From NCBI GenBank assembly GCA_944322745.1, contig CALUPV010000004.1, positions 118,606 through 182,605 on the forward strand: a stretch of DNA of 64,000 bases, read 5' to 3'. The translations under genes and the position numbers were made by a program. The stretch is from Candidatus Gastranaerophilales bacterium (lineage in GTDB: Bacteria; Cyanobacteriota; Vampirovibrionia; Gastranaerophilales; Gastranaerophilaceae). Each line of letters opens with the position of its first letter. The stretch's first letter is position 1. Below are positions 36,075 to 56,180 of this stretch, piece by piece. The notes beneath the pieces were generated by a model, which ran no database searches, was not told the origin of the DNA, and saw only the letters and a list, made by a program, of their open reading frames with translations.

Positions 36075-36151
<77 letters not shown>

Positions 36152-36254: not shown

Positions 36255-36355
36255 TTAAAGTTTAGCTAAAGCTTCTTTTAAATGGTTCTGTGTAATATGT
36301 ATGTATCTCATTGTTGTTTGAATATCTGTATGTGCTAAGACTTCTTTTATTACAG
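36255..36355 (-). pseudogene. Tyrosine integrase, C-terminal 32 codons (split gene, part 2)
   Basis: Read on the minus strand from 36350 the sequence encodes IKEVLAHTDIQTTMRYIHIT and eleven more residues, then TAA at 36255. It holds the catalytic His (AHTD) and the nucleophile Tyr (MRYIH) of a tyrosine recombinase. It is not an independent gene: it lacks a start and is the missing end of the integrase at 56176-57075. Bases 36351-36355 (TACAG) are the target duplication left by the transposon. Confidence 0.92.
36351..36355. repeat. Target-site duplication, left copy (TACAG)
   Basis: TACAG here and at 56176-56180. Joining the flanks through one copy restores GVPVAVIKEVLAHTD in frame. Confidence 0.85.
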
Positions 36356-36589
36356 TGTAGATTATCAGAGAGATTGAGAAAAGTACCCCCGGAAGTTTGA
36401 GAGAATTCTCAAACTTTTTAAGTTTTGAGGGAAATCTTTCAAAACTAACTGATATAAACTCTCAAACTCCCAGATAATTCATTCTCAAAGTAACTGATAC
36501 TTTTTTGATAAGTTTTTTATCCTGCTTAAAACAGAATAAAAACATTGTTTGAACGCATTTTAAACTTACATTAAACGGACAATAATATA
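36356..36589. other. Left end of the Mu-like element: hairpins and repeats
   Basis: No gene. A 9-bp stem AGTTTGAGA/TCTCAAACT followed by TTTTT (36394-36420) and a second stem AGTTTTGA/TCAAAACT follow each other. TAACTGATA occurs twice and TCTCAAA three times, as expected for transposase-binding end repeats. The first hairpin could also terminate transcription from outside. Confidence 0.5.
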
Positions 36590-39500
36590 TTATTGTTTAT
36601 TTCTGAAACGTATTTTCCCAAAGGTTTTTCCCGCAAAAATTTTATTGATAATTTCTTTTAAGCTGTCAGAAAAGCCCCTGATTTCAATATCTCTCATTAT
36701 GTCATTATATAAATCATAAGACCATTGAAGCATTTGAGTTATTATTTCCTGTTTATTTTCTATGTTAGATTCTTCTATAATTTTTGTATTTAACAATAAA
36801 ATTTTAGAAGGTTCTTTTCTATTTTCTCCCAGTAGCATATCTGTTATTAATGTTCTTTTGGTCAATAGTTGGTTTATATTATTATTTCTGCTATTTTCAT
36901 CAATTATTTCACTTAATTCTGAATATTTACCGGTTATCTTGTAATTTACATCTATAACAACTTTAAAGAGTTCTGCAAAACTGTCATTGAATAACAATTT
37001 TGAAAGAATATATTTACGTTCTTCCAAAGTATAAACATCCAATAACCTTTCATTTAAATTTCGTAGAGATTCATAATCTCTTACTTCGCTATCGTTACTT
37101 GTGATAAGTTCTATAAATTCATCTGTGGTATATATTTTTTCTTTAGGGAGTTGTTCCAACCATCTTCGTTTTTCTTTTAATTCAATATTTTCCAATTTTA
37201 ATATCAATTTATATAAATTATTTAAATTTTCAGGTGTTTGTATTCTTACAATAGTATTATATAAGTTAATAGCACAATCCAATTTTTTATCATTTACATC
37301 ATCTGTTGTGATTTGATTAAAGCTTTCATCAATTCTATTATCGTTGTTCCAAATATTTTCTCCACATGCCAATGCTAATTGCTCGATTTTATCAGAATAA
37401 TCATGTGAAAAATCAACATTTTCAAGTATTAAAATAATAAAGTCTTTAACTTTATCCGTATTTCCCAAAGATAAAATTGGCAATAAACAAAGTAATTGTT
37501 CAAAATATTCTTTTTCTTCATTTGGAATCAAGTAATCACTCGTAAATTCGAAAAATTTGTCTAAATATATAGAAGCAACTTGCTCATTTTTCTCCGCTAA
37601 AATCGCATCAATATACTGTTTAAATTCATTTAGTGTAGATTCCTCTAACGAACTTACATTGGTATCCATAACAAAATCTGCATAATTATTTGCAAAAGAA
37701 ATTTTATTCTCATTTGATAAATTATTATAATTATTAAATAAATAATTTAAGAATAATTTTAAATTTTCAGATTCAGGTTCAAATTGGAATAGTTGATTAA
37801 CAATAAGTGTATCTATTTTTGAAATATTGTCATAATTATTATTTCTTAGAATATTTATTATTTCAATAATTTGGACTGTATAATTTTTATTTGGCACAAT
37901 TGCTTCGCACAACTCATCTATATACTGGTAATTGTCTATTTCTATTTTTTGGTAATAAACATTTAATAAATCCCTAAAATTTTCTAATTGTTCTTTTACG
38001 TCGAATTCTGTTTTAATGTCATTATTTAATTTATTTTCAATCGCAATATCAAGCTGAATTACATAATTATTTATATTGCTATCAGTAAAGTTACTAATAT
38101 TTTTCTTTGTATAGTCTATTATGTAAGAATATAATTTAGTGTTTTCTTCTCCTATAATATTATCAAATACATCATTAAATTTTTCATTTTGATTTATTAG
38201 TATATAATCAAGTGCTTTTTCAAATGTTTGTATTACTTTAGTTTCATTTTCTTCTGTTATAAAACTTTTATCTTTTTGGAATTCTTTAATAATTGTATCG
38301 ATATACTCTTTACTTTTATATTGATATATAAATTCATAATTTTGAAATGCGTAATAAGTGTATTCAAATCCAAAATCAAAATCTTCACCATTTTCTACAT
38401 TTTCATTAGCAAATATAGGAGCTATTACCCAACTGCAAAAATTGTTATCTACAAAATCATGGTTATTATTGTAAAACTCTAATAATACATTTGAAGCATC
38501 TTTGAATAGAGTCATTCTTTGCTTATCTGCCTCTGAAGAAGTATCATAACTATATTTAACACGATATGTTTTATTTAATGAGGCAATCACTTTTTTAATT
38601 TTTGATTTTGATACAGCATGTAATAATTTTTGATAATCTTCAATCGACAAAGTCTTACGATATTTGTCATGTTTATAAAGTGTATCTGCAAAGGAATCTA
38701 TTAAAAATCGAGTATCATTATTTATAAAAGGTATTAATTTTACAATTACCGAAAATGCATTTTCTTTATGTAAGTCATAAGATAAACTTTCATATACACT
38801 TTTTATCAGTTGAGCATTCTCAACTGAAAGTTTATTTGTTTTTAAATCTAAAATATTAAATAATTTTTCATAAGAATTATGTATTAAAGCTTCCTCTATA
38901 TCATAAGCCTGTTCTCCATATTTTCTACTTAATGAATTTTGATTTAATAGTAGAAATGGTTTTAATGATGTAGGAAGTTCAAACTTATTATTTATTAGAT
39001 TTAAATATTGGTTTAAATCATAAAAACAAGGTTTTAATTCTATTGCATTGTTATCAGACACACAAATAAATTTATCTTTGATTTTGGAATCAATATAAAG
39101 TTTTGGTAAAACGCCAGTTCGAAGGACTTCTAATACATAACTTAAAAGTTTTGGCTCAATTAAAAGTCCCTTATAAAAATATGGAAAGTCAACTTTTAAA
39201 ACAGCTAGTATGGCAAGTGTTAAAGGATGCTTTGTAACAATACCTTCTGCTAATCCACCAGCTTTATTTGCCATCTCAGCAGATTCTCTTCTTATTGCAA
39301 TATTCCAGCTTTGAAAAAATGTGTTAAGGATTTGAATAGCCTGCCTTGGATTTTGTACATTAGGATATATTAGTCTACAGAGTAGATTTTCCAAATCAGT
39401 GCCAGAATTAATTAGTTGAGTTTCAAAGTCCTCAAAGTCAGGAATCTGTGTTTCCAATATTTTTTTCGAGTAATCTATCATGTCTCTATATGGAAATGGA

Positions 39501-40459
39501 GGAATATCAATTCTAAAGTGAAATATTTTATCTAAAAATCGTTTAGCTTCAACTTGTTGTTCGCATGATTCAATATCCATATCGTCAGTAATTTTAATTG
39601 ACATTAAAGCATCTGATATTTTATATTCACAACAGGAAACAACAAAAACAAATCCTATATTATCTTTGTCTTCTATGTCAAAGTCCATAAATGCTCTTAT
39701 TGCATTTATACCATCAACCATTTCTTGTGCAGAGGGTAAACGATCAATATCATCAACAAATACAACAATTTTATCTATTAATTTATTGCTTTCCTTATAT
39801 TTTTTTAATTGCTTTTTTAAAAATTCTTCATATATTTCCGCTGTTGTATCAGGAACATCCATTTTTGTAATGTTCTGAAATACGGGAACTAACATATTAT
39901 TTTTATCCAATAAGTATTTTGTTACTATTGCTAAAACAGCTGCTAACGGTATTGTAGAAAATATTTGCCCCCATAATTCTAGATTTGGTAGAAAAAATTT
40001 CCACATTAAACAAAGTATTAAATTATAAATTATTATTTGCAACCAATTACATGCTACATTCCAAATATTTTTACGTAACTCTTGATTATCACACAATTCC
40101 ATAACTTGTTTTGTTATATGGCGGCTAAATTGATCTTTTATAGCTTCGTCTGTTCCATTAATCTTTAAATAAATTTCTCGTAATAATGCTTTTTTTATAC
40201 CACAACCACCATATTTCCAAGCATTAAAATCAATACAATAAACATTTTTAGAATTTTCGCCAAGTTTCTTTTTGCATATTCCTTTAATTGAACTTTTCCC
40301 GACCCCCCATTTACCTAAAAGTCCAATGTTGTAAGGCATTTTTAAATCATTATTTGTAATTAAATCATACAATATGTCAGCATAGTGTTCATGTCCAAAC
40401 TGATCGGCATCTGGTGAATTTAAAGGCTTATCTAACAGTAATGGTATCTTTTTCAACAC
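36590..40459 (-). CDS. KAP-family P-loop NTPase, large
   Basis: This 1289-residue protein has Walker A at residues 49-56 (GKWGVGKS) and Walker B near 237-242 (VFVDDIDRL). Two transmembrane helices (residues about 130-190) are inserted between them, which is the hallmark of KAP NTPases that sit on the inner face of the membrane. The long C-terminal ~900 residues are helical, very Asn/Glu/Leu-rich and without a domain I recognise; they may be a sensor or effector array. KAP proteins are repeatedly found in phage-defence loci. It is the outermost cargo gene, divergent from the first methyltransferase across 98 bp. A defence role is inference. Confidence 0.85.
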   Translation of the reverse strand: MLKKIPLLLDKPLNSPDADQFGHEHYADILYDLITNNDLKMPYNIGLLGKWGVGKSSIKGICKKKLGENSKNVYCIDFNAWKYGGCGIKKALLREIYLKINGTDEAIKDQFSRHITKQVMELCDNQELRKNIWNVACNWLQIIIYNLILCLMWKFFLPNLELWGQIFSTIPLAAVLAIVTKYLLDKNNMLVPVFQNITKMDVPDTTAEIYEEFLKKQLKKYKESNKLIDKIVVFVDDIDRLPSAQEMVDGINAIRAFMDFDIEDKDNIGFVFVVSCCEYKISDALMSIKITDDMDIESCEQQVEAKRFLDKIFHFRIDIPPFPYRDMIDYSKKILETQIPDFEDFETQLINSGTDLENLLCRLIYPNVQNPRQAIQILNTFFQSWNIAIRRESAEMANKAGGLAEGIVTKHPLTLAILAVLKVDFPYFYKGLLIEPKLLSYVLEVLRTGVLPKLYIDSKIKDKFICVSDNNAIELKPCFYDLNQYLNLINNKFELPTSLKPFLLLNQNSLSRKYGEQAYDIEEALIHNSYEKLFNILDLKTNKLSVENAQLIKSVYESLSYDLHKENAFSVIVKLIPFINNDTRFLIDSFADTLYKHDKYRKTLSIEDYQKLLHAVSKSKIKKVIASLNKTYRVKYSYDTSSEADKQRMTLFKDASNVLLEFYNNNHDFVDNNFCSWVIAPIFANENVENGEDFDFGFEYTYYAFQNYEFIYQYKSKEYIDTIIKEFQKDKSFITEENETKVIQTFEKALDYILINQNEKFNDVFDNIIGEENTKLYSYIIDYTKKNISNFTDSNINNYVIQLDIAIENKLNNDIKTEFDVKEQLENFRDLLNVYYQKIEIDNYQYIDELCEAIVPNKNYTVQIIEIINILRNNNYDNISKIDTLIVNQLFQFEPESENLKLFLNYLFNNYNNLSNENKISFANNYADFVMDTNVSSLEESTLNEFKQYIDAILAEKNEQVASIYLDKFFEFTSDYLIPNEEKEYFEQLLCLLPILSLGNTDKVKDFIILILENVDFSHDYSDKIEQLALACGENIWNNDNRIDESFNQITTDDVNDKKLDCAINLYNTIVRIQTPENLNNLYKLILKLENIELKEKRRWLEQLPKEKIYTTDEFIELITSNDSEVRDYESLRNLNERLLDVYTLEERKYILSKLLFNDSFAELFKVVIDVNYKITGKYSELSEIIDENSRNNNINQLLTKRTLITDMLLGENRKEPSKILLLNTKIIEESNIENKQEIITQMLQWSYDLYNDIMRDIEIRGFSDSLKEIINKIFAGKTFGKIRFRNKQ

Positions 40460-40557
40460 ATTCCCCCTTTTTGATAATCATATCATAAAATAAAATACTC
40501 TATGCGAAGTGTTAATAAATATCTTTATATTAATATTTATAGTAAAATAGAACTAAC

Positions 40558-41721
40558 ATGGGAGAAGGTAAGAATAAAAAATTAAGAGTGTTCGAAGCTT
40601 TTGCGGGGTATGGTAGTCAGAGAATGGCTCTTCGCAACATTGGCATTCCTTTTGAAATCGTTGGAATTTCAGAAATTGAAGGGGAAGTCATACGCTCTTA
40701 TGCTGCAATTCATACAGACTTTTTAGAAAAACGAAAAGAATTAGATAAATTTGTTGATCTTGATAAGGAGGACTTAATTGCATATCTAAAGAGACTCAAT
40801 GTTCCTCTTGATTATAAAACATTTGTAAATAGAGCTCCTAAAATGAAAATTGATCAACTTAAGGAAATGTATCTTGCAAATAAATTGATTAATAACTATG
40901 GGGATATAACTAAAATTGATCCTGAAAAATTACCAGATTTTGATTTATTTACATACTCTTTCCCTTGTCAAGATATATCTGTTGCAGGTTATCAAAATGG
41001 TTTAAATGAAAGATCTGGAACAAGATCCTCTCTCTTATGGGAGTGCTGCAAAATTATTGAAGCCAAAAAACCCAAATATTTAATGATGGAAAATGTTAAA
41101 AATTTAGTAGGCTGTAATCACAAAGCAAACTTCTTAAAATTTTTAAGATACCTTGAATCTATTGGGTATAAAAATAGGTGGTCAGTTCTCAATGCAAAGG
41201 ATTATGGAACACCTCAACACAGAGAAAGAGTATTTTGTATCAGTGTATTAGATGAAATGAATTATTTTAGATTCCCAAAACCGGAGCCACTGACAATAAA
41301 ATTAGCTGATGTTTTAGAACACGATGTTAGTGAGAATTTCTATTTAAGGAATAACCAATTTATGGATCATCCAATTGAGCAAGAATACAGCTATTGTATT
41401 GATTCAAACTATTGGAAAGGCTCAACTTTAAATAGCTTTTTAGAGAAAAAAAGACGACAATTAATAACAGATAAAATTAATGAATATGGTGAATATATGG
41501 TACGCCGTTTGACTCCACACGAAGCATGGAGATTAATGGGCGTATCAGATGAAGATTATGAAAAAGTATCTTCAATTATAAGTAATACAAGTTTATATAA
41601 GCAAGCAGGAAACAGTATAGTTGTCAGTGTTTTAGAACATATTTTCACTAATCTTTTTATAAATTATGATACAACTATACAAGACCCTAATTTTGCAGTA
41701 CAATTAGCCTTATTTAACTAA
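40558..41721 (+). CDS. DNA (cytosine-5) methyltransferase, first of two
   Basis: This 387-residue m5C methyltransferase has motif I (FEAFAGYGSQRMALRNIG), motif IV with the catalytic Pro-Cys near residues 138-140 (SFPCQDISVAG), motif VI (MMENVKNL), motif VIII (GTPQHRERVF) and motif X (GNSIVVSVLEHIF). The segment between motifs I and IV is longer than usual. It opens a methyltransferase, endonuclease, methyltransferase cluster. TAAAAT lies nine bases before the ATG and no Shine-Dalgarno site is visible. It protects host DNA from the adjacent nuclease. Target sequence discussed with the nuclease. Confidence 0.92.
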   Translation: MGEGKNKKLRVFEAFAGYGSQRMALRNIGIPFEIVGISEIEGEVIRSYAAIHTDFLEKRKELDKFVDLDKEDLIAYLKRLNVPLDYKTFVNRAPKMKIDQLKEMYLANKLINNYGDITKIDPEKLPDFDLFTYSFPCQDISVAGYQNGLNERSGTRSSLLWECCKIIEAKKPKYLMMENVKNLVGCNHKANFLKFLRYLESIGYKNRWSVLNAKDYGTPQHRERVFCISVLDEMNYFRFPKPEPLTIKLADVLEHDVSENFYLRNNQFMDHPIEQEYSYCIDSNYWKGSTLNSFLEKKRRQLITDKINEYGEYMVRRLTPHEAWRLMGVSDEDYEKVSSIISNTSLYKQAGNSIVVSVLEHIFTNLFINYDTTIQDPNFAVQLALFN

Positions 41722-41738
41722 TTTTCAAGAGAGGGTTT

Positions 41739-42548
41739 ATGACTGCAAAGGAAGATATTATTGAGCTTTTCCATCGGAATGTAAAAGGTAAGAAGCCAAA
41801 TGTTGAAGGCACAAATGAAAGACATGATGGTAGACAAGGCCAGTGGTTGGAACATCAATTTGGTATTCATTCAAATGACTATAATGCTGCTGATTTGTGG
41901 GGCTATGAGCTGAAAAACGAAACAAAATCAAAAACTACCTTTGGTGATTGGTCTGCCAACGAATATGTATTTACAAATCCTCAATACTGCATTTATTTTA
42001 CAGGCAGAAGCAAATTTGAAAAAAGAGAAGATTTCTTAAGAATTTTTGGTAAACCCAATGAATTAAAAGGTGGCAGATGCTCTTGGTCTGGTTCTCCTTG
42101 TCCAAAAATAGAGTGCTTTAATGATTTTGGGCAAAGATTAATCGTTGATACAAACAAAGATATTTTAGCAATATATAGTTATAGTGAGGATAAAAGAGCT
42201 GATAAAGCTGAAATCGTACCAAGAGAACTACAAATAGAGAATCTTGTAATTGCTCGTTGGTATGGAGAAACCTCACCTACAACAAAGAAAACTGATAAAT
42301 GCCTAAAGGCAAAATTGGAAGATAAGTTTAATGACAAAGGTTGGTTTACTTGTAAAACAGATGAAAATGGTCTGTATTGCAAGATTTGTTTCGGCAAGCC
42401 TATGAACTACAATGAATGGATAGAACTTGTAAAACAAGGTATTGTATTCTTTGATAGCGGGATGTATCAAGGGAATAAACGACCTTATTCGCAATGGAGA
42501 GCAAATAATAATTTCTGGGATAGTTTAATTACGGAAACCTATGAATAA
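41739..42548 (+). CDS. Type II restriction endonuclease, LlaMI/ScrFI-like candidate
   Basis: This 269-residue protein lies 17 bp after the first methyltransferase and 72 bp before the second. It has a PD-(D/E)xK-type core: QGQWLEHQFGI, then NAADLWGYELKNETKSKTTF where D and E-x-K are candidate metal ligands. The motif and the arrangement (two m5C methyltransferases around one nuclease) resemble my memory of the LlaMI/ScrFI type, which cuts CCNGG; this is recall, not a search. Sau3AI/MutH-like is the alternative label. GAGAGGG precedes the ATG. Cleavage of unmethylated invading DNA is the expected role. Confidence 0.7.
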   Translation: MTAKEDIIELFHRNVKGKKPNVEGTNERHDGRQGQWLEHQFGIHSNDYNAADLWGYELKNETKSKTTFGDWSANEYVFTNPQYCIYFTGRSKFEKREDFLRIFGKPNELKGGRCSWSGSPCPKIECFNDFGQRLIVDTNKDILAIYSYSEDKRADKAEIVPRELQIENLVIARWYGETSPTTKKTDKCLKAKLEDKFNDKGWFTCKTDENGLYCKICFGKPMNYNEWIELVKQGIVFFDSGMYQGNKRPYSQWRANNNFWDSLITETYE

Positions 42549-42620
42549 ATTGTGTTGATATGATAAGTATTGTGTTTAACAAAATGGCACAATAAGCATT
42601 ATTATGGTAACATTCATAGT

Positions 42621-43601
42621 ATGAAATCTAAGAAAAAAATAAAAATCATAGATTTATTTGCTGGAATTGGTGGAATAAGACTTTGCTTTGAACAAGCATT
42701 TAAGGGTAATGTAGAATGTGTGTTTACAAGTGAAATTGATAAATTCGCCATTCAAACTTATATTGCTAATTTCGGGGATGAGAATATCTATGGCGATATA
42801 ACTAAAATTGACGAAAAAGATATTCCTGAACACGACATATTATTAGCGGGTTTTCCATGTCAGCCATTTTCTCAAGCCGGTTTAAAAAAAGGGTTCAAAG
42901 ACACAAGAGGTACTTTATTTTTTGATATAGAAAGAGTTTTGTTGGCGAAAAAACCAAAAGCCTTTCTGTTAGAAAATGTAAAACAATTAAAAGGACATGA
43001 TAAAGGTAATACCTTAAAAGTTATATTGGAACACTTAAAAAATGCTGGATATAAAACTTATGTTCAAGTTTTAGCTGCGAAAGATTTTGGAGTTCCTCAA
43101 AATAGAGAAAGAATTTATATAGTTGGTTTCTTAGATAATAATGTTGATTTTCATTTTCCAGAACCGATCAAAAAAGAAACAAAGGTCGGTAGTATATTAG
43201 AAAAAAATCCTGATAAAAAATATACTATATCTGACAAATTATGGGAAGGACATCAAAGACGAAAAGCAATGCATAAATCCAAAGGCAACGGATTTGGCTA
43301 TGGTTTAGTAAATGCTGATAGTAGTTATACAAACACTATATCTGCAAGATATTACAAAGATGGCAGTGAAATCTTGGTAGAACAAAAAGGCAAAAATCCA
43401 AGAAAATTGACTCCAAGAGAAGCAGCTAGACTTCAAGGATTTCCTGAAGATTACAATATATCCGCCGTTTCAGATAATCAATTATATAAACAATTTGGAA
43501 ATAGCGTGTGCGTTCCAGTTATAGAAAAAATTGCAGAAAAGATTAAGGAAAGCTTAGAAATGACTAGCCTTCATAATGAAATTCTGGCAAAAGTTCAATA
43601 A
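42621..43601 (+). CDS. DNA (cytosine-5) methyltransferase, second of two
   Basis: This 326-residue enzyme carries motif I (IDLFAGIGGIRLCFEQAF), motif IV with Pro-Cys near residues 79-81 (GFPCQPFSQAG), motif VI (FLLENVKQL), motif VIII (GVPQNRERIYIVGF) and motif X (GNSVCVPVIEKI). It is closer to the common HhaI-type than the first methyltransferase, so the two are not recent duplicates. Two enzymes for one nuclease fits a site whose strands differ. The frame is open upstream to 42570, but the ATG at 42621 gives the normal family start. Its 3' end overlaps the convergent glycosylase-like gene by 38 bp. Confidence 0.92.
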   Translation: MKSKKKIKIIDLFAGIGGIRLCFEQAFKGNVECVFTSEIDKFAIQTYIANFGDENIYGDITKIDEKDIPEHDILLAGFPCQPFSQAGLKKGFKDTRGTLFFDIERVLLAKKPKAFLLENVKQLKGHDKGNTLKVILEHLKNAGYKTYVQVLAAKDFGVPQNRERIYIVGFLDNNVDFHFPEPIKKETKVGSILEKNPDKKYTISDKLWEGHQRRKAMHKSKGNGFGYGLVNADSSYTNTISARYYKDGSEILVEQKGKNPRKLTPREAARLQGFPEDYNISAVSDNQLYKQFGNSVCVPVIEKIAEKIKESLEMTSLHNEILAKVQ

Positions 43602-45162
43602 ATTCATTCACTGTCATTATATCATTGGACAAGTCTAATGAATGTGCCTCTTTTAATAAATAACCTGAAAATTCATCAATTAAATAATAATCATCAATAC
43701 TATTCCGTTTATATATAGCTTTATAAATTTTCTTTGGAATATTGTTTTCCATAATGCAAATAAATTCACAGTTATTGTTTTTCGCCTTATCTTTAAAATT
43801 ATCCCATTGGGTATTATCATTATTTTTAATCAACAATTTGTTTGTTTTAATTGATTTGTATCCACAACAACAATGATGCAGTTTACATTCATAACATGAT
43901 AGAGGATTAATACCTCTAAATTTCTTGTTATTATTTACGCCATATCTTTGACACCACAAAAGTTCCATATATGTTCTAATATTTGTTTTATTAGCCTGAC
44001 TAACTAACCATATCAAACGTTCTAGTTTACCTAAATTTATAAAAGAGTTAAAAAATTTTTTTGTTGAATTTATTCCTAATGCATACTCATAAAATGTTTT
44101 AATCCAAGTGTCAATAGGAATAACATCTTTATTTGCAAACCCTTGCTGTAGATAGCAAGCAACAACTTTTTCAGAGCATCCTTTAATTTGATTACCCTTG
44201 CTATAAAATTTTTGGAATAAGTCTTTTGACCATAAATTGTAATCAAAATCTTTGATTGTAAATACTGCCCATATAAAATAACACGCACGCCAAGGATGCC
44301 TATTGAAAGCATCTACTAAACGTTCTATTTGATAGGTGTCTTCTCTATTAAAGTTGTTTTCAGAATTTTGCTCAAGTTTTAATAATTTATTTTCTCTTAA
44401 TTTTTCTTTGTTTTTATCCCAAGCGACTTCTAATGATTTAAAATTATGGTGTTCAATCTCAACATGATTAACATATTCTATATCCCAAATTTTTTTCATC
44501 GATGAATATAATTCAGAAAATTTTTTAAATTGAGAAAAATCATTGTCTTTTATATCTTGGTATGTTGGTAATAAGAAAAACTCCATAAATGACCAATTCG
44601 GCAAATTATTATGGTCAATATTTATAATTTCTCCGTATGTACTCAAAAAATTATACAACATTCGCATTTCACTTTGTCTACCAGTTTTTGGTAAAAACGC
44701 AGAGACAAATTTTACTATAGAATAGAATTCCTCATAAAAATGCCCATAGGGTAAAATTTTTCCATACAAATTTGTACATATATCAAACAATTTTTCTAAA
44801 AATTCTTTGTATTTTGGGTCTATACAAGATTCTAATATCTGATCTTTAGTTATAGGATCAGATAAACCAATTCTATTTTCTAGTTCTTGCTTTACTTTTT
44901 TATAATAGGAATAGGATTCATCATTTGAAATATTGACATTGCATAAAAATAGAAATTTTATATTACAGTTTTTATTATCATGATTATATGAAGAGACAGA
45001 GAACGTGACAGGAAATCCATATATTCGCTTATTCCCAAGCACGAAATGAATATACATAATAGGAAATCCAGGCAAATCTGGATAAAATAATTCTATCTTT
45101 GGTAACCATTTTACCGGAACGTTTTCAATTTCTACTTCGCATGAATATTTTATTTCTTCCAT
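43564..45162 (-). CDS. OGG1/EndoIII-like (HhH-GPD) protein with Cys cluster and unknown N-terminal domain
   Basis: This 532-residue protein has a C-terminal part that matches the HhH-GPD glycosylase pattern: KGCSEKVVACYLQQGF with a candidate catalytic Lys near residue 332, then VIPIDTWIK with Asp near 351. The 19-residue Lys-to-Asp spacing is that of OGG1. A cysteine cluster (SCYECKLHHCCC, near 421-432) could hold a 4Fe-4S centre as in EndoIII. The first ~270 residues are not recognised. It is convergent with the second methyltransferase. It may repair T:G mismatches from m5C deamination, or attack modified phage bases; both are inference. Confidence 0.6.
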   Translation of the reverse strand: MEEIKYSCEVEIENVPVKWLPKIELFYPDLPGFPIMYIHFVLGNKRIYGFPVTFSVSSYNHDNKNCNIKFLFLCNVNISNDESYSYYKKVKQELENRIGLSDPITKDQILESCIDPKYKEFLEKLFDICTNLYGKILPYGHFYEEFYSIVKFVSAFLPKTGRQSEMRMLYNFLSTYGEIINIDHNNLPNWSFMEFFLLPTYQDIKDNDFSQFKKFSELYSSMKKIWDIEYVNHVEIEHHNFKSLEVAWDKNKEKLRENKLLKLEQNSENNFNREDTYQIERLVDAFNRHPWRACYFIWAVFTIKDFDYNLWSKDLFQKFYSKGNQIKGCSEKVVACYLQQGFANKDVIPIDTWIKTFYEYALGINSTKKFFNSFINLGKLERLIWLVSQANKTNIRTYMELLWCQRYGVNNNKKFRGINPLSCYECKLHHCCCGYKSIKTNKLLIKNNDNTQWDNFKDKAKNNNCEFICIMENNIPKKIYKAIYKRNSIDDYYLIDEFSGYLLKEAHSLDLSNDIMTVNEFIELLPEFHYEG

Positions 45163-45188
45163 AAAATAATTCTATCATAAATTTTTAG

Positions 45189-45213
45189 TATAATAATTGT
45201 AAGGAGAATTCTC
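45189..45213 (+). promoter_or_regulatory. Promoter and ribosome-binding site of the MazG-like gene
   Basis: TATAAT at 45189-45194 and AAGGAG at 45201-45206, then the ATG at 45214. Confidence 0.6.
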
Positions 45214-45561
45214 ATGGATATTGAATTTTTAAAAGAAAAAACGGTACAATTCAGAGATGAAAGAGATTGGAAGCAATTCCATACACCTAAAAATCTAGCG
45301 ATGGCATTATCTGTTGAAGCATCAGAATTAGCTGAATTATTTTTGTGGAATGATAATGCCGGTTCTTTTAATACAGCAATAACTCAAAACGAGCATTTAC
45401 AAGAAGAAATGGCGGATGTTTTGATATATCTCTTATCAATGTCAGATATTCTAGATATTGATTTATCTAAAGCAGTGTTAGACAAATTAGAAAAAAATAA
45501 TAAAAAATATCCTGTTGAAAAATCAAAAGGATCTTGTAAAAAATATACAGAATTAAAATAA
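45214..45561 (+). CDS. MazG-like nucleotide pyrophosphohydrolase
   Basis: This 115-residue all-helical protein matches the short MazG/dCTPase-type family: FRDERDWKQFHTPKNLAMAL, then SVEASELAELFLW with the E-x2-E motif, and EEMADVLIYLLSM with the second E-x3-D metal site. Such enzymes hydrolyse (d)NTPs to monophosphates; within defence clusters they may drain modified or signalling nucleotides. It is divergent from the glycosylase-like gene across 51 bp and lies at the end of the first AT-rich cargo block. Housekeeping nucleotide clean-up is equally possible. Confidence 0.85.
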   Translation: MDIEFLKEKTVQFRDERDWKQFHTPKNLAMALSVEASELAELFLWNDNAGSFNTAITQNEHLQEEMADVLIYLLSMSDILDIDLSKAVLDKLEKNNKKYPVEKSKGSCKKYTELK

Positions 45562-45616
45562 CAGTTGACTTAACTAAGACTTTGAGTGATGAATACGACA
45601 CAATAAAGAAGGTCGT

Positions 45617-45838
45617 ATGGAAAAAGTCGGATTGAATATTACACCAAAAGAGTTTAAGCAATTGAGCAAGTGGTCGGAGAATATTTATAATACAGCGGTT
45701 GTTATAGATTATTTTGTCGCGAATCAACCGGAGATTGAGGAATGCTACAATCTTGCGCCGGTAGTTAAGCACTTGCGAAATGATGCAGATGTTATGAATG
45801 CATTCTTTATTGAGCACGAAAAAAATATCGAAATTTAA
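45617..45838 (+). CDS. Small hypothetical protein of the transposon core
   Basis: It encodes 73 residues starting MEKVGLNITPKEFKQLSKWS and containing NQPEIEECYNLAPVVKHLRN. It is probably all-helical. AGAAGG precedes the ATG. Its base composition looks closer to the MuA/MuB genes than to the cargo, suggesting it belongs to the backbone of the element. No family is recognised. It is convergent with the HTH gene at 45857. Confidence 0.55.
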   Translation: MEKVGLNITPKEFKQLSKWSENIYNTAVVIDYFVANQPEIEECYNLAPVVKHLRNDADVMNAFFIEHEKNIEI

Positions 45839-45856
45839 ATAGCTTTTAAAAGGTGT

Positions 45857-46312
45857 TTAATCGGTGTTCAAATCGTGTTCACAAATTTCTTCGTGAGTTA
45901 TGCCGAGAATTTGTTCCTCTATTTCTCGTATAACATCCGGTGTTAAACCTTTCGGCTTTTCCTCTTTAGGTTTTTGTTTTTCACTTATCACTTCATCCTC
46001 ATAAGATTTAACCGGTCCAATCAATTTCAGCATTTTAGTAACGGCATAATATCTTGCAGGCTCGACTTTACCGTTGCTCTCCATATCCTTTTCGATAGAA
46101 TTTATCAAACTTCGGGTAAAATCATATAAATCTGAATGTAACGTTGTTTTAGTGCGAAGATATTCAGTTCTTTTGGTTTCCCAATCATCAGACTTTTTCC
46201 ATCGGCGGAGTGTTCTTTCATTCAAATGAAGCTGCCTCGCGATATCTTCTAATGACATAAATTTTTCAGCATAAAGTTTGAAGGCATCTTGTGCCAATAT
46301 TTGTTTTTTCAT
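45857..46312 (-). CDS. HTH protein resembling terminase small subunit/DUF1804
   Basis: This 151-residue protein begins MKKQILAQDAFKLYAEKFMS, then LEDIARQLHLNERTLRRWKK, a clear helix-turn-helix of the kind at the start of small terminase subunits and DUF1804 proteins of Mu-like phages. The C-terminal part is Lys/Glu/Pro-rich. The frame is open far upstream, but GAGG six bases before the ATG at 46312 marks the start. With no large terminase or other packaging gene present it may now act as a DNA-binding regulator. Base composition matches the transposon backbone. Confidence 0.6.
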   Translation of the reverse strand: MKKQILAQDAFKLYAEKFMSLEDIARQLHLNERTLRRWKKSDDWETKRTEYLRTKTTLHSDLYDFTRSLINSIEKDMESNGKVEPARYYAVTKMLKLIGPVKSYEDEVISEKQKPKEEKPKGLTPDVIREIEEQILGITHEEICEHDLNTD

Positions 46313-46472
46313 AATTAACCTCGGGGTAAATAAAGTTTTGGTACACACAGGATAACTCTTGTTCGCAGAAACATCAAGTCCCAAATGTGTCTGTATGATA
46401 CGATTTCGAGATTTAGAGTTGATGTTTGCTTCTGAAAGAGCGATGAATGATGTAGCTTGAAAGGAGCATACT

Positions 46473-46685
46473 ATGATTGAAATTGGCAAAAAGTACAGAT
46501 TAAAAAAGCTCAAAGGTTGGTTTGAAAAAGATAGCGAAGAGTTTAAGGTTCTGTGTTTTGGTGAACCCAATATTGTAGGCTGCGTCGCACCTGATGGTGA
46601 AAAATATGTATTTGATAAAGATTTTTTGATTGATCCCGATAAGCCGGATGAAATTTATGCCGATATTAAAATAACGAAAGGTTAA
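46473..46685 (+). CDS. Small hypothetical protein, transposon backbone
   Basis: 70 residues beginning MIEIGKKYRLKKLKGWFEKD, probably a small beta-barrel (repeated short strands with glycine turns: NIVGCVAPDGEKYVF). AAAGGAG precedes the ATG. The stop overlaps the ribosome-binding site region of the next small gene, three bases away, so the two are one operon. It is divergent from the HTH gene. Function unknown. Confidence 0.6.
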   Translation: MIEIGKKYRLKKLKGWFEKDSEEFKVLCFGEPNIVGCVAPDGEKYVFDKDFLIDPDKPDEIYADIKITKG

Positions 46686-46688
46686 ACT

Positions 46689-46883
46689 ATGGTTGAAAAA
46701 GATTATAAGTTATACGGGACAAAGATTTTAAATTTAAAAACTCGAGAAATAGGTTTATTAATTTGTTTATGGGAAAACAAATTCGCTGATAAAACTGTAG
46801 ATTTTGCAACTTGTGTTGATAAAAACGGTAATCGCTACAACATTGAACTTGATAATATAAGAGGGTTTGAAGATGATTTTTAA
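46689..46883 (+). CDS. Small hypothetical protein, paired with the preceding gene
   Basis: 64 residues beginning MVEKDYKLYGTKILNLKTRE and ending in DNIRGFEDDF. It also looks like a small beta-rich protein with a short 'DKNGNRYNI' turn like the 'DGEKYVF' turn in its neighbour, so the pair may be distant paralogues. AAAGG lies upstream of the ATG. Its last bases overlap the end of the convergent helicase gene by 4 bp. Function unknown. Confidence 0.55.
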   Translation: MVEKDYKLYGTKILNLKTREIGLLICLWENKFADKTVDFATCVDKNGNRYNIELDNIRGFEDDF

Positions 46884-49800
46884 AAAGATATTTCATATTC
46901 AGATTGTTTTTCAAGTTCCGACTTTATAATTTTAAGACTCTTCCTTTTCTTTATATTAAGAGAAAAGTTTTTAATTACATCATTCATTGTTTCAGAACTC
47001 CAAAAGATTTTAAGATTTTTCTTTGCTCTTGTAATTGCCGTATAAAAAATTCCATGTGTTATCTCTTCAGAATTATTCTTAGGTATTATAATTTTTACAG
47101 AATTATATTCTAGCCCCTGCGCCTTATGTATTGAAACCGCATATGCTAAATGAAAAGGCACTACACTTTTTTTACGTTTTTCTTCAGCATCTTCATCTGT
47201 TTCGTTATTGTACTCATAGACAGAAAATCTTATAAGAGTGCCCTTTTCTGTATAATCAATAAATTCTATTTCGTCAAATTCACACTCTTCTTTGGTTAAG
47301 ATAATCTCTACATCTATAGTAAATCTAATGTAGTTTTCCAGTTTTTCGATATTGACAATTTTACCTTTTAAATTATTGTACAAATAATAAAACCGTTTTG
47401 TATCACAAAACAGTATCGGATCATCAATTTTATAATTCCATACGCCCCAAGTTATAGCTTTGTTTTTATTCGCATTTTGAAAATATGCATTCATATTGTT
47501 TAAGCCAAATTTACCATCATAATTAAGACATAATATAACTTCATCAATATCTTCTTTAGTCAATATATTTTTACTAATATCTCTAGAGTAAGGCCCATCG
47601 ATAACCAATTTTTCAGTTATAAGCGGTTTGCAATCTCTAACTTCGTTCCACAAGCTTATAAGTTTTTTATCATTAGTTCTCCAAGTACTTAATAATTCTA
47701 CATTAGAATGTTTATTTTTAATAATTTCTTTTGCATAGAAAAACCAATTCCCAAAATCAATTGATTCTATTTGATAAATATCACCAGCTAAAACTAAAAG
47801 TGTATCCTGATTAATTTGCGAAAGAAATTTTTCCATTGTTCTATTGTCTATTGTTGTACATTCGTCGATAAAAATAATATTGTAATTCAGGTTTACACCC
47901 TTTCTTGTACATTTATCAATTGTACTAAAATCAGCATTTTCTATATTTTTAAGACGTCTTTGTAAATTTTGCAATGATGTATGTGTTTTTGTTAAAAATA
48001 ATTTAGTTTCATTTTTTGAAAGTCGTGCAATATGATTAATAAGAGTTGTTTTACCAGTCCCTGCAGCACCATAAATCAATAGAATATTAGACTTTACAAA
48101 AACATTTTTTATTGCTTGTTTTTTCACATCATCGATTTCTTCTAAACATTCTTTAAGATATTTTTTATTATCTTCTGTTCGTGATTCATTAGAATTATTT
48201 GAAAATTCAATAAGCTTCTTTAAAATATTTATAGTTGTTTTTTCGTATGAATCTATACATACCTGATTTTCTTTAATATTAACTTTATAACCTTCTCTAT
48301 TTTCCCAATCATCTAGTAACGAATTAAACTGTTCTATTTCTTCATTAGAAGCTATTGAGGATGTATCAAAATATATTTCTCCAGTATTTTTTATTAAATT
48401 TTTAATTTTAAAATATGGTTTATATAAATCAAGATTATTATCTCCAGCTGCATCTATAATATTAAAAAAGTTAGATTCACTTGTTTTCTTTTTTATCAAA
48501 TTTGATATATATGGATTTTTCTCAAAGGGATAACACTGTCTGTCAATTTTTACTTGATTGTAGTTTAAGTGCGATTGACCATACTTATCATCACCATATA
48601 TATTTCCTAATGTATCTTCTCTTAGATTTATTATTGCGTATCTTATTACATTTCGCCCATCTGATATTCTAGTTTTTGAAAAATATTTTTTTAATTTTTC
48701 TAAAACTTTTTTAAATTCGTTAGTATTTGTATCTTTATATATATTGTTTATAATTTCGCTAAATTTAGAATCTCTAATGTCAATTAATTGAAGTAAATTT
48801 ATTCCGCTACTTGTTAGAAAATTCATCAATTTTTCATATTCTCCGTGTTTTGAAGTTATTTTTGTAGGAATTTCCAAAATTTTAGCAAGCTTATTTAGAC
48901 ATCTTGGGGATATTGACACTTTCCAATTTGTTATTAATTTTATTTTGATAGGAACACCCCATAAATTAATTTCAGATTCTTCATATGCTATTTCTATTGA
49001 ATAATTCGTAGATATATTTTCTGTAGAATATACTGTTATGCGATTGAATTTTGAGGCATATATACTAGCTAATTGTAAAGTAATTTCATAATATCTTTTA
49101 CTTTTTACATAAAAAGTTGTCTTTTTTTGAATAAAATATCTCGCTGATTGTGGCTTTTTGTTAGATTTTTTTACAGAATCAATTGCTTGGGCAACTAGTT
49201 TATTGTATTCATCATCTAACTCATCAATTTCTAATGGGAATTTATTTAAATTCGATAAAACTTCTATATTATAATCTTTTTTCAAATATTCTTTGATTTG
49301 CCATAAGAAATCATAGTATTTCAGCATTAATCTTTCTGACTGACCTTCTTCTGGGATTATTTTACCTCTGTACTTTATTCCCTTATAGAAATTTGCTAAA
49401 TACTTTGTTTTTATATCTAAAAGTGCTGTTTCCCATGCTATAGGAATGGTTGTTTCTTTATCTTTTGCATTTAAACTATTTAAGAGTAAAACAGCACAAC
49501 AAAAATCATCTAATTTCGTTAGAAGTTTTTTTGATAAATTATCTCGAGAATCATTTAAAATATAACCATTTTCAATACTTTGCGTAATTTCTTCATTACA
49601 AAATTTTATCATTTCAATTATATTCTTTTTGGAATAAGGGTAATCCTCTAATTTTGTTAAAAAAGAATGATTTTCGGCAATTTCAGTTAATTTTCTACAA
49701 AATTCATCAATACTCTCATCTGAATATTTAATTTCATTTTCTGGTCCAAAATCAATAGTAACGCTACCATTCAAATAATTAATAGAGTATACAAATTCTA

Positions 49801-50212
49801 ATGACATGTATTTCCAAAAAACACGTGATTCCCCTTTTTCTAATGGGTTTAATACTACAAATAATATTCCAGGATCCAATGTAGATTTATTAGCAATAAA
49901 AGCAGGAAATCCTAAAGATTGTAATGAATATTTAAATCTACCATCTTTGGTAAAATTATTTATTGATGTACCTTTAATTTGAACAAAGAAGTTTTGCTCT
50001 GGCGCTCTCGAGATACTTGGATTTGATACAAATTCAAATGTCCCGTCAGTATTTGGCCACTTATCATCGTCAGAAAAATTTTCATTTATTTTTCCATCTT
50101 TTGTCGATAAAAATGATTTTAGAATAGTAACAGCACTTCTATCCTCATTAGATCTTACCGAATGGGTTTTTACATGTTTTTGAATTTGTTCTTTATCTAT
50201 ATACATTGTCAT
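46880..50212 (-). CDS. DUF4365-like nuclease fused to SF1 helicase
   Basis: This 1110-residue protein starts with a ~170-residue DUF4365-like region: a candidate metal Asp in WPNTDGTFEF and QIKGTS where E-x-K is replaced by Q-x-K, as is common in that family. A ~500-residue middle part is unrecognised. The helicase has Walker A (YGAAGTGKT), Walker B (IIFIDECTTI), 'LVLAGDIYQIESI' and the late motifs 'HLAYAVSIHKAQGLEYNSV' and 'FYTAITRAKKNL'. This gives a single-chain nuclease-helicase, a frequent design in defence loci. The ATG at 50212 has no strong ribosome-binding site; a second ATG is two codons in. Confidence 0.75.
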   Translation of the reverse strand: MTMYIDKEQIQKHVKTHSVRSNEDRSAVTILKSFLSTKDGKINENFSDDDKWPNTDGTFEFVSNPSISRAPEQNFFVQIKGTSINNFTKDGRFKYSLQSLGFPAFIANKSTLDPGILFVVLNPLEKGESRVFWKYMSLEFVYSINYLNGSVTIDFGPENEIKYSDESIDEFCRKLTEIAENHSFLTKLEDYPYSKKNIIEMIKFCNEEITQSIENGYILNDSRDNLSKKLLTKLDDFCCAVLLLNSLNAKDKETTIPIAWETALLDIKTKYLANFYKGIKYRGKIIPEEGQSERLMLKYYDFLWQIKEYLKKDYNIEVLSNLNKFPLEIDELDDEYNKLVAQAIDSVKKSNKKPQSARYFIQKKTTFYVKSKRYYEITLQLASIYASKFNRITVYSTENISTNYSIEIAYEESEINLWGVPIKIKLITNWKVSISPRCLNKLAKILEIPTKITSKHGEYEKLMNFLTSSGINLLQLIDIRDSKFSEIINNIYKDTNTNEFKKVLEKLKKYFSKTRISDGRNVIRYAIINLREDTLGNIYGDDKYGQSHLNYNQVKIDRQCYPFEKNPYISNLIKKKTSESNFFNIIDAAGDNNLDLYKPYFKIKNLIKNTGEIYFDTSSIASNEEIEQFNSLLDDWENREGYKVNIKENQVCIDSYEKTTINILKKLIEFSNNSNESRTEDNKKYLKECLEEIDDVKKQAIKNVFVKSNILLIYGAAGTGKTTLINHIARLSKNETKLFLTKTHTSLQNLQRRLKNIENADFSTIDKCTRKGVNLNYNIIFIDECTTIDNRTMEKFLSQINQDTLLVLAGDIYQIESIDFGNWFFYAKEIIKNKHSNVELLSTWRTNDKKLISLWNEVRDCKPLITEKLVIDGPYSRDISKNILTKEDIDEVILCLNYDGKFGLNNMNAYFQNANKNKAITWGVWNYKIDDPILFCDTKRFYYLYNNLKGKIVNIEKLENYIRFTIDVEIILTKEECEFDEIEFIDYTEKGTLIRFSVYEYNNETDEDAEEKRKKSVVPFHLAYAVSIHKAQGLEYNSVKIIIPKNNSEEITHGIFYTAITRAKKNLKIFWSSETMNDVIKNFSLNIKKRKSLKIIKSELEKQSEYEISF

Positions 50213-50280
50213 CCCAAGTCATGATTTATACGATTCTTGTCTATATTATATCAAAAACAAGTGACACCAGTATTTTAGCA

Positions 50281-50658
50281 TTATTTTTTTTGTCTTATTC
50301 TATTACTTGTATTATTTAAATTAATTTGTCGGTTTATCCATTCCATAATTACTGAAACAAGATATTCTTGTTCAGTTTTGGTTAATTCTCTGTGTTGAGG
50401 AAATTTGTGCCATTTTTCAATGCAGCCGCGGCAGCAGGTGGCGGTTGCGTGTTGTGCGATAAAAACTGGGTGCCCTCGCATTGGAGTTTGTTTGCCGTCG
50501 TTCACAGGTTCTGCCGGAGCAACTCTATCCCGAATAAAATCGCAGGCATGAGAATATATTGTATCAAGTCCTTTATCTTTTATATATTCAAGTTCTTTTG
50601 CCCGAAGCTTAAATCTGCTCCTGAAATTTGATTTTGCAAGTTTATCCAATATATCCAT
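50281..50658 (-). CDS. DUF4186 family protein
   Basis: This 125-residue protein matches the DUF4186 pattern: FRSRFKLRAKELEYIKDKGL, 'HACDFIRDRVAPAEPVNDGKQTPMRGHPVFIAQHATATCCRGCIEKWH'-type core (given here only in outline: GHPVFIAQHATATCCRGC with a His and paired Cys that may bind metal), then 'LVSVIMEWINRQ'. Function is unknown. The central part is notably G+C-rich for this genome, suggesting recent arrival or strong constraint. It lies between two cargo blocks, and its composition groups it with the transposon backbone. Confidence 0.85.
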   Translation of the reverse strand: MDILDKLAKSNFRSRFKLRAKELEYIKDKGLDTIYSHACDFIRDRVAPAEPVNDGKQTPMRGHPVFIAQHATATCCRGCIEKWHKFPQHRELTKTEQEYLVSVIMEWINRQINLNNTSNRIRQKK

Positions 50659-50681
50659 AAATTTATGATAGCATAATGATA

Positions 50682-51473
50682 ATGAGTAAAAATGAAATAA
50701 AAGAAACTGAAGAAAAAGAACAAGTCGAAAAGTTTTTAAAAACCAAAGTTGGTCAGGAATGGTATGAAGGACTTGGTGTTATTGATTGTGTAAAATCAGA
50801 AGCTCCGGATTTTAAAATAAAAACAATAAATGATGACACTATCGCATTAGAAATAACTAAATTTATAGCAGAAAATAAAAATCTTAAATTTTCTCAGGCT
50901 TTAACCAGAATAGGTAATAAAATTTGCCGAGAAGCAGAAAAGGAATATAATCTTCGCATACATATACTTATTGATAAATATGATGAAAGGGAATTTAGCA
51001 TCCATTTGAAAGACCATTTGGATTATGCTTATAATCCAGGGTTTTCAGAATTGCCTGATGCGAAAATACTTAAACAAAAAATGCATGATGTTCTCAAAAA
51101 TAATATAGAAAAATTGAGACAAGGTTGGCTCGTGCAAGAGTGGATTCAAGTAGAAAATGAATATTTTAAAATTTCAATTGAGTCTTTTGCTTGTCCTTGG
51201 ACAGGGAAATATGATTGCCACGTCAATAATGCCGGCATGGTAAAGCAAAATCCTATTGATGAATTACAAATCTGTATTAATAAAAAGAATGATAAAATCC
51301 AATCTTATAGCAAGGATTGTACTAAATGTTATTTGTTAATAATTGTACCCAATGCATACAATGCTAATTATTGTTCTTTTGATAATTCACTATTCGAGCA
51401 TAAATTTAATTCTAAGTTTGAAAAGATATTTTTATGCGAGGAGAATGGTAAATACGCATATACTTTAAATTAA
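50682..51473 (+). CDS. Hypothetical protein, possible PD-(D/E)xK-type nuclease
   Basis: This 263-residue AT-rich cargo gene begins MSKNEIKETEEKEQVEKFLK. Residues about 40-60 read EAPDFKIKTINDDTIALEIT, an acidic residue, a spacer and E-x-T, which is a possible variant nuclease core. The C-terminal region has a C-x2-C pair (DCTKCYLLI). No family is recognised. I use the ATG at 50682; the frame also has an ATG at 50676. It is divergent from DUF4186 and convergent with the transposition operon, whose last gene ends 4 bp beyond. Defence cargo is a guess from location. Confidence 0.5.
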   Translation: MSKNEIKETEEKEQVEKFLKTKVGQEWYEGLGVIDCVKSEAPDFKIKTINDDTIALEITKFIAENKNLKFSQALTRIGNKICREAEKEYNLRIHILIDKYDEREFSIHLKDHLDYAYNPGFSELPDAKILKQKMHDVLKNNIEKLRQGWLVQEWIQVENEYFKISIESFACPWTGKYDCHVNNAGMVKQNPIDELQICINKKNDKIQSYSKDCTKCYLLIIVPNAYNANYCSFDNSLFEHKFNSKFEKIFLCEENGKYAYTLN

Positions 51474-51476
51474 ACT

Positions 51477-52721
51477 TTATATATGTATCAGCTCATAAAT
51501 CAAATTCAATTGGTCTTCAAAATTAGGGTTGAGTTCTTTCCATAAAAATACGGCGAGGTGGTGGTCGAGGTATTTTCGCATACTTGCCATAAACTTTTTG
51601 CGGTAAAGAATATTGTATAATCTGCGGGCTTCTTTGACTTCCTCGGGTTGTTGACGTCGTTGAGGAAGTTTTGTTTTTAGTGCTTTTTGAGTGATAAAAA
51701 CTTTGTCACCATAACAATAAATGTATATTGGAACATCGTTCAAAAAAATCCTCACTTGCGGGATTTGAGGATCAGAGTCAAAATGTTCAACCAGTTCCTG
51801 ATATTGCTTATCAAAGATTTTTGCCCGAATATATTGATAAAAAGTTTCTGTAGTCGTATTTCCCATATTTGCTATTTTTGCAGTCTGTGAAGCCGGAATT
51901 CCAAAGCAAAAACATTTATAAATAATCTCGATTTGTTCGGTTGTCGCAAGATTGTAAACCTTCGGCAGACGATTAAGATTCCTGCGAACTTTGGGTTCTT
52001 CGTTTTTATTATCCGGCATGAAATATTTAGGAAATATTCCCATCATCCCTTCTGTTTGGTACTTTTTTCTTTTTGAATGAAATGCAGAATATGAAACCTT
52101 TAGTTTTGGATTCTTTAGCGGAATTAATTCCAAAAAGCTCCGCAGCTCTCTGCAATTCATACCTTCTGTGAATTTAAAAAGTTTCAGATATCTGTAAATA
52201 AATTCTTTGCCTCTATCAGAAGCCACAACATACAAGCGTTCTTCCTCTTTATTGCGGCAAAGTTTTTTGACCTCTTTATCCATCGCCCGCCGTTCGGAAT
52301 CTTCTAAAAAATCATAAAGTTTAAGTGATGAACGTTTACTCAAATATTTGCCCTCTAAATCAGGTTCTTTGTTAGGTTTTACGACATAATTTCCTTTAAG
52401 ACAATTCCTTTTTACCGTTTCTTCCTGAATATTTAAAAGCCGAGCAACCTCTGCTATCGTAAGCCAAATATCTGAATCACTGCTTTGACTTGTGGGGAGA
52501 GGTTTATTCACACGTTTTTTAAAATTTGTGTATAGATATTTTGTATTTGATATCTTTTTAATTTGATTCAAATTTTCCAAATCATTAAGTGCTTTTTGAA
52601 TTGTCTTTTCATTTTCTTCAAGCATTGGCAGAATGTCAGGTAGAGTGAATTTATTAAGCCCTTTTGCTATTTTAAGAATTTTCATTTGTAAGTTCAATTT
52701 CTTCTGCGTCAGCATCGTCAT
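51477..52721 (-). CDS. Third transposition-operon protein with HTH domains
   Basis: This 414-residue protein starts inside the MuB-like gene (50-bp overlap) behind a very strong AAGGAGGTG, so it is co-translated with MuA and MuB. It has an N-terminal winged-helix-like region, then DIWLTIAEVARLLNIQEETV, which resembles the N-terminal DNA-binding segment of the adjacent transposase (DIWIDVETLAKLKNITRRAV). A second HTH-like stretch (CFCFGIPASQTAKIANMGN) follows. No catalytic motif is seen. It may be a target selector or end-binding cofactor, but it is not obviously TniQ or a known Mu protein. Role is inference. Confidence 0.6.
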   Translation of the reverse strand: MTMLTQKKLNLQMKILKIAKGLNKFTLPDILPMLEENEKTIQKALNDLENLNQIKKISNTKYLYTNFKKRVNKPLPTSQSSDSDIWLTIAEVARLLNIQEETVKRNCLKGNYVVKPNKEPDLEGKYLSKRSSLKLYDFLEDSERRAMDKEVKKLCRNKEEERLYVVASDRGKEFIYRYLKLFKFTEGMNCRELRSFLELIPLKNPKLKVSYSAFHSKRKKYQTEGMMGIFPKYFMPDNKNEEPKVRRNLNRLPKVYNLATTEQIEIIYKCFCFGIPASQTAKIANMGNTTTETFYQYIRAKIFDKQYQELVEHFDSDPQIPQVRIFLNDVPIYIYCYGDKVFITQKALKTKLPQRRQQPEEVKEARRLYNILYRKKFMASMRKYLDHHLAVFLWKELNPNFEDQLNLIYELIHI

Positions 52722-56175: not shown

Positions 56176-56180
56176 TACAG
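56176..56180. repeat. Target-site duplication, right copy (TACAG)
   Basis: Five bases matching 36351-36355, directly outside the right end of the Mu-like element. Confidence 0.85.

Follow-up and report, generated by a model that had tools for sequence, protein, structure and literature searches.

What kind of mobile element combines a Mu-type transposase, a changing set of defence genes and a single phage packaging gene? The question is raised by a locus in Candidatus Gastranaerophilales bacterium (NCBI GenBank assembly GCA_944322745.1, contig CALUPV010000004.1, positions 118,606 to 182,605), the host of which is likely a gut bacterium; the whole 64,000-nucleotide stretch analyzed is referred to as the window, and all coordinates are counted from its first letter. 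The element in question, a Mu-type transposon of 19,820 bp at 36356-56175, probably serves as a mobile carrier that delivers predicted anti-phage systems and exchanges them between bacteria, which would make it a mobile defence island built on a Mu chassis of phage descent. Defence cargo is well known from Tn7-like transposons. The surprising part is that the terminase small subunit (TerS) is kept without the large subunit (TerL), and TerS probably has a function of its own. A preliminary description of the same DNA, made from the letters and open reading frames (ORFs), had placed the element at 36356..51473; the left limit stands, whereas on the right the element continues to 56175.

A constant backbone and exchangeable cargo

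Relatives of the transposase, MuA, were found at 65 distinct loci in genome contigs, the named taxa being mostly Candidatus Gastranaerophilales or Melainabacteria, with two Acinetobacter, and a MuA match (E <= 0.001, near and distant alike) is present in 255 of the 383 genomes of the window's order. IMG/VR viral contigs contribute one MuA-matching locus, and among phage records a Fusobacterium phage transposase matches best, with 29% identity. Fifteen elements including that of the window, with MuA 96.5–98.3% identical to the window's, make up the set called chassis A here. MuA, the ATPase MuB and TerS are constant in all 15, while the third protein of the transposition operon, C, occurs in its 414-aa form in 12, a DUF4186 protein in 10 and a 265-aa protein in 6. 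The backbone is under purifying selection, with ratios of nonsynonymous to synonymous substitution rates (dN/dS) of 0.022 for MuA and 0.12 for TerS, calculated from 13 of the 15 elements, G163 and G099 being excluded for their divergent TerS.

Cargo occupies defined places between these genes: slot 1 extends from C to a central block, slot 2 from the central block to the left (L) end, and slot 3, used in seven loci (L006, L012, L014, L018, L023, L032 and L052), from the right (R) end to MuA. In the nine elements for which both ends are known, 93 gene clusters lie strictly between the ends; 87 were assigned by us to the non-backbone class. Of these, 73 are unique to a single element, 12 are shared by two and 2 are found in more. 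This count is preferred to a wider one over all 15 elements, where 107 of 141 clusters are confined to a single element but some flanking genes are included from the elements whose ends are not placed. The preliminary description had proposed comparing the interval from the left end to muA among homologous elements, and had named the constant recurrence of the same genes, without defence homologues, as the outcome that would speak against it; different genes were found at a MuA identity of 97–98%, and that outcome did not occur.

Of the 14 relatives, 11 can be aligned with the central block (~1.28 kb) along its full length, at 84–91% identity; in G371 the alignment covers 1.06 kb, and G163 and G099 align patchily. 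At 0.32, the synonymous divergence of TerS is below the 0.88 of MuA, which would fit exchange through the central block. One PD-Lambda-5 module lies in slot 2 in G177 and G242a and in slot 1 in G211b. In G163, G099 and G211a, MuB is ~60% identical and C is a 508–509-aa variant, as if the two had been exchanged together, with MuA still at 97–98%; this pair is possibly an exchangeable target-choice module. In slot 3, the extra DNA is located at one fixed place of the R end, with a short overlap (~R 619-635) repeated on both sides.

Defined ends and a 5-bp target duplication, as in a Mu-type transposon, are present in the window element, the duplication being TACAG, as read from the sequence, at 36351..36355 and 56176..56180. 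The L end (36356..36520) consists of ~165 conserved bp, with a repeated motif and a palindrome, across which 19 L ends align. The R end (55476..56175) has the conserved terminus TATAGTTTTTCGGACAC and contains the site that holds slot 3 in kin and is empty in the window; 19 of the 20 alignments that reach the terminus, the window included, begin at base 1 and the remaining one at base 6. The flanks are two pieces of one tyrosine integrase gene, one ending in EKGVPVAV and the other beginning with VIKEVLAHTDIQTTMRYIH, and the homologue in a genome of the same genus (G109) runs uninterrupted across the insertion point, through KKGVPVNIIKELLGHSDISTTMRYLH. The interrupted integrase is that of a tRNA-Asn integrative element, in which a 20-bp sequence is repeated exactly (36126-36145 and 60857-60876), so that one mobile element is located inside another. 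The integrase additionally carries an in-frame stop, and independent damage to the outer element may thus have occurred. The outer element (36126-60876) also has an S24 repressor-like gene (57283-57951) and an M78 peptidase-like gene (59179-60249). Copies of the transposon nested within another copy's end were noted in G097, G059 and G234, and tandem or nested ends (L046 8854-9303; G129, G059, G097 and G234) occur as if self-targeting were not prevented.

The transposition operon lies on the minus strand. MuA (53403..55475; PF09299, Mu-transpos_C, 3e-13) has D285, D352 and E398 as a candidate catalytic triad, and is accompanied by a MuB/TniB-type ATPase (52672..53463; PF05621, TniB, 1.5e-6; PF13401, AAA_22, 4e-16); both matches, as expected of a Mu-type transposon, are above the cut-off, and the transposase has homologues in phages. 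The C gene (51477..52721) gives weak helix-turn-helix (HTH) matches and is replaced by its variant in three elements. The idea that C is a known target selector was set aside, its model being poor (predicted local distance difference test 66.5) and its likeness to MuA weak (hhalign probability 5%). The central block includes, on the plus strand, backbone genes of 73 aa (45617..45838; 14 of 15 elements; no match in NCBIfam and PHROGs), 70 aa (46473..46685) and 64 aa (46689..46883). Central blocks that are otherwise alike differ in the sequence preceding the 73-aa gene (window ~45560-45616 and kin), of which there are two alternatives, possibly representing different operator types. A structured RNA in the central block was considered and rejected, as Rfam returned tRNA only and the opposite strand of this stretch is occupied by small genes. 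The DUF4186 gene (50281..50658, minus strand; PF13811, 1e-52), a frequent member of the backbone, lies farther towards C.

Defence homologues in the cargo

When 50 selected cargo proteins of chassis A were compared with PADLOC models, 37 matched, as opposed to 1 of 10 host-flank genes (Fisher p 2.6e-4); per batch of 10 the matches numbered 8, 7, 7, 8 and 7, with cut-offs of 1e-12 in the first two batches and 1e-8 in the remaining three. The control comprised 10 of the 21 ORFs of at least 200 aa in window 1-33600, and its lone match is a RecD-like helicase. A restriction–modification (R-M) or methyltransferase match was obtained in slot 2 of all 11 elements in which slot 2 was scanned. The matches in kin comprise type I R-M in G129, G145, G177 and G211b and type II sets in G059 and G104; G145 additionally has Gabija and a type IV enzyme, G129 has AbiLi, G371 Hachiman and G177 PD-Lambda-5. 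Exchangeable cargo with defence homologues on a constant backbone is what a mobile defence island would present, and, together with the differences in cargo among kin, these matches argue for the mobile defence island suggested in the preliminary description.

In the window, slot 2 begins with a KAP P-loop NTPase of 1289 aa (36590..40459, minus strand; PF07693, 1e-20; partial matches to PifA, 1e-14, and QatA, 3e-13), whose counterpart among the 14 kin is in G104 (73%). It is followed on the plus strand by a 5-methylcytosine (m5C) methyltransferase (40558..41721; PF00145, 6e-74), a LlaMI-type restriction endonuclease (41739..42548; PF09562, 8e-72; PADLOC REase_II, 1e-108) and a second m5C methyltransferase (42570..43601; PF00145, 2e-109), an arrangement predicted to form a LlaMI-type II R-M system. 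ScrFI-type R-M systems have two m5C methyltransferases, and the window set resembles the LlaMI/ScrFI type in joining two such enzymes with a LlaMI-family endonuclease. It differs from that type in adjoining a minus-strand gene (43564..45162) for a 532-aa protein, the 3' end of which overlaps that of the second methyltransferase gene. A MazG-like protein (45214..45561, plus strand; PF12643, 7e-17) completes slot 2. Slot 1 holds a superfamily 1 helicase of 1110 aa, of the PDC-S53 type (46880..50212, minus strand; PADLOC PDC-S53, 1e-281), and the 265-aa gene (50676..51473, plus strand) occupies the same place in the other elements that have it. The PDC-S53 helicase, the endonuclease and the 532-aa protein have a counterpart in 0 of the 14 other elements, and no Cas protein was recognised in the window element.

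The KAP NTPase, the two-methyltransferase restriction system and the MazG-like enzyme of the preliminary description are all borne out by these family matches. Its DUF4365-like nuclease-helicase is indeed a helicase, whereas DUF4365 was reached at a sub-threshold level only (E 0.0036). For its glycosylase-like protein, that of 532 aa, no family match rises above the cut-off; a confident model nonetheless matches OGG1/AlkA folds, and the HhH-GPD fold and the two catalytic positions, by OGG1 residue numbering, were found, so that it is best described as a predicted OGG1/AlkA-fold DNA glycosylase. Its "another possible nuclease", the 265-aa protein, has no family match and a single unconvincing match among solved structures. 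The 532-aa protein has no match in plasmid records, and a sequence search of solved structures returned none for it or for MuA. Kin of the 532-aa protein are widespread, the named entries being called "hypothetical protein", and an unnamed OGG1/AlkA-fold family with extra N- and C-terminal parts (P0092-P0211) extends from Omnitrophota to Clostridia and Nitrosopumilus.

Defence homologues are also carried by more distant relatives. Seven loci selected by a TerS identity of 52–61% (T051, T062, T074, T089, T104, T109 and T152) form chassis B, whose MuA is 42–43% identical to the window's. MuA, MuB, C and TerS form a tight operon there with TerS as the fourth gene, no match to TerL or structural genes was obtained, and a relative of the window's 73-aa gene is present in four of the seven. 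Their cargo includes SIR2-Argonaute, Gabija, type I R-M, AbiH and PDC-S02, and 9 of 10 cargo proteins, chosen for defence-like looks, matched defence models. Downstream of the cargo, T051, T074, T104, T109 and T152 share a block of ~50-60 bp, likely the distal end of chassis B. A third chassis comprises eight loci (L205-L212) with a shorter MuA (53–58% identity), TerS at 33–41% and a short C; the order MuA-MuB-C-TerS is the same, TerL is unmatched in 8 of 8, and type I R-M-like genes were recognised by eye near L211.

Several observations weigh against a dedicated carrier of defence genes. The 50 scanned proteins were picked by hand, mostly from the larger ones, 13 of them have no PADLOC match, and PADLOC entries of the PDC kind, such as PDC-S53, are candidate systems. 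Judged by eye, the cargo downstream of TerS in T074 (L192, L193) reads like glycan synthesis, and the operon neighbours in L206 and L209 read like housekeeping genes. Moreover, matching 5-bp flanks were found in three of the nine two-ended elements (window, G059 and G371) and are missing in six, for which deletion or recombination after replicative transposition could be the cause.

A carrier of defence genes remains the likely reading. Under it, the element would be moved within a cell by Mu-type transposition, cargo would be swapped where different copies recombine at their conserved blocks, and the cargo would protect cell and element alike against phages and rival elements. The least certain step concerns TerS, which, kept from a Mu-like phage ancestor, would either assist or control transposition by binding DNA or mark the element for the packaging motor of a helper phage.

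The solitary terminase small subunit

TerS (45857..46312, minus strand; 151 aa), first seen as a weak Pfam terminase match, has an HTH as its N-terminal part and is located between cargo slots in all 15 chassis A elements. The preliminary description had stated that phage structural genes are lacking, which holds, but had overlooked this packaging gene. With eight queries covering TerL, portal, MuF, head, tape-measure, baseplate and sheath, no match was obtained in the 15 elements, which thus have TerS alone as a packaging gene without structural genes, a combination resembling that of phage-inducible chromosomal islands. The TerL, portal, head and tail genes of a complete Mu-like phage, missing from the window element and its 14 kin, are present in three Mu-like prophages, G078 and G102 (MuA 74–75%) and T011 (MuA 61%). 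G078 and G102 have homologues of TerL, portal, MuF, head, sheath, tape-measure and baseplate, several of these names having been assigned from sequence and order rather than by family scan, and G078 gives PHROGs matches to tail fibre, baseplate and tape-measure. Both also carry a TerS homologue (E 2e-40 and 4e-37) directly before TerL, and distant kin of the window's 70-aa protein; kin of the 64-aa protein occur in G078.

TerS and TerL were searched for in 367 genomes of the order, 57 of which have a TerL match. Among the TerS matches listed, TerL lies within 200 bp in 0 of rows 1-49 (at least 48% identity), in 46 of the next 47 (36–47%) and in 6 of the last 54; of these 54, at least 17 have a listed MuA match no more than 5 kb away. 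Thus, TerS beside a Mu transposase without TerL is common, and on both sides of the phage group.

Trees were built from 24 of the 28 loci with both MuA and TerS, or 23 after removal of G242b, leaving aside the TerS of the third chassis, and with groups named after the identities had been seen. In the MuA tree, chassis A stands with G078 and G102 (98/97), nested among prophage MuA, and a grouping of A plus B is disfavoured (approximately unbiased (AU) test p 0.023). In the TerS tree, chassis A stands with B (99/99), apart from prophage TerS, and the MuA grouping is rejected (AU p 0.0007). From this conflict across chassis A, B and the three prophages, it follows that TerS and the transposase have recombined.

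Among the roles that TerS may play, that of a DNA-binding helper or regulator in Mu-type transposition rather than a packaging protein, with the element spreading between cells by other means such as conjugation of its host element, is about as likely as not. Its place as the fixed fourth gene of a tight operon in two other chassis fits such a role better than a part in a satellite, and the N-terminal HTH suits it as well. TerL is not enriched in genomes with TerS of the chassis A or B type (9 of 43 versus 48 of 324, p 0.37), and no TerL match was found in the window's own assembly. On the other hand, the prophage homologue sits directly beside TerL, as in the middle tier of the listed matches, the C-terminal stretch of TerS is alike in elements and prophages, and G219a has MuA and methyltransferase-like cargo with no TerS match, according to which transposition may be independent of TerS. 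The alternative that the elements are transposable phage satellites, travelling from cell to cell inside the particles of Mu-like helper phages, with TerS steering the helper's TerL to the element and the cargo blocking rival phages, on several distant chassis, is rather doubtful. Such an element would be a natural equivalent of laboratory mini-Mu. It would account for TerS without TerL or structural genes in all 15 chassis A elements, the seven loci of chassis B and the eight of the third, for a TerS group of A and B separate from that of prophages contrary to the MuA tree, and agrees with the existence of prophages with related MuA and TerL in the same taxonomic order; pac SaPIs (Staphylococcus aureus pathogenicity islands) are described, in the available text, as encoding a TerS that works with phage TerL (PMC5052747). 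Yet the same comparison of 43 and 324 genomes gives no signal of co-occurrence of element and helper, no helper was found in the window's assembly, element and prophages were not seen to share ends or a pac-like sequence, genes for induction, capsid or interference were not recognised, and G219a again lacks a TerS match.

Finally, a Mu-like prophage that has lost its structural genes and acquired neighbouring ones by chance is a very improbable origin for the element. The nesting of chassis A among prophage MuA and the prophage kin of the small backbone proteins would agree with it, but the reduced backbone recurs in 15 elements whose dN/dS is low, whose ends are conserved and whose cargo has been exchanged, and again in distant chassis, and these features point to a live family rather than to independent decay; decay was rejected on the recurrence of this backbone under purifying selection. 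The preferred reading, a mobile carrier of defence genes on a Mu chassis, is compatible with either role of TerS.

Relation to known systems and significance

Among Tn7-like transposons, R-M is the most frequent defence cargo, accompanied by Gabija, sirtuins and Hachiman, and innate systems are found on 26%, according to the available text of Benler et al. (2021, PMC8649781), which does not mention Mu or satellites. The window element shares with them, as far as that text describes, a backbone with varied defence cargo, and differs in its phage Mu-type MuA and MuB and its backbone TerS. With phage Mu and Mu-like prophages it has in common MuA, MuB, the 5-bp duplication, a TerS homologue and small backbone genes, but it is about half their size, carries defence cargo, and is devoid of TerL, head and tail genes. 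It resembles SaPIs, phage-inducible chromosomal islands, in having TerS without the remaining packaging genes and in its accessory cargo, as covered in the available text (PMC5052747); unlike them, it would move by a DDE transposase instead of an integrase, and a helper, induction and capsid control are hypothetical for it. The accessible parts of PMC11656645 and PMC13232261 mention Mu-like transposons whose transposition is CRISPR-guided, and the likeness to these Mu- and Tn7-like CRISPR-associated transposons lies in a defence-derived module on a Mu-like transposon. In contrast to theirs, the cargo of the window, with no Cas recognised, seems complete in itself and uninvolved in choosing targets. 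The open-access literature searched yielded no description of Mu-lineage elements that serve these bacteria as defence carriers, nor of transposable satellites that have TerS.

Given that conserved blocks frame the cargo, anything between them becomes a candidate new defence gene, and in the window three proteins, the OGG1-fold protein, that of 265 aa and the KAP protein of 1289 aa, are no more than candidates for new defence systems. In addition, the solitary TerS raises the question of whether a transposable element can be a phage satellite; if so, a headful mechanism that packages the 20-kb element would take adjoining host DNA along as well.

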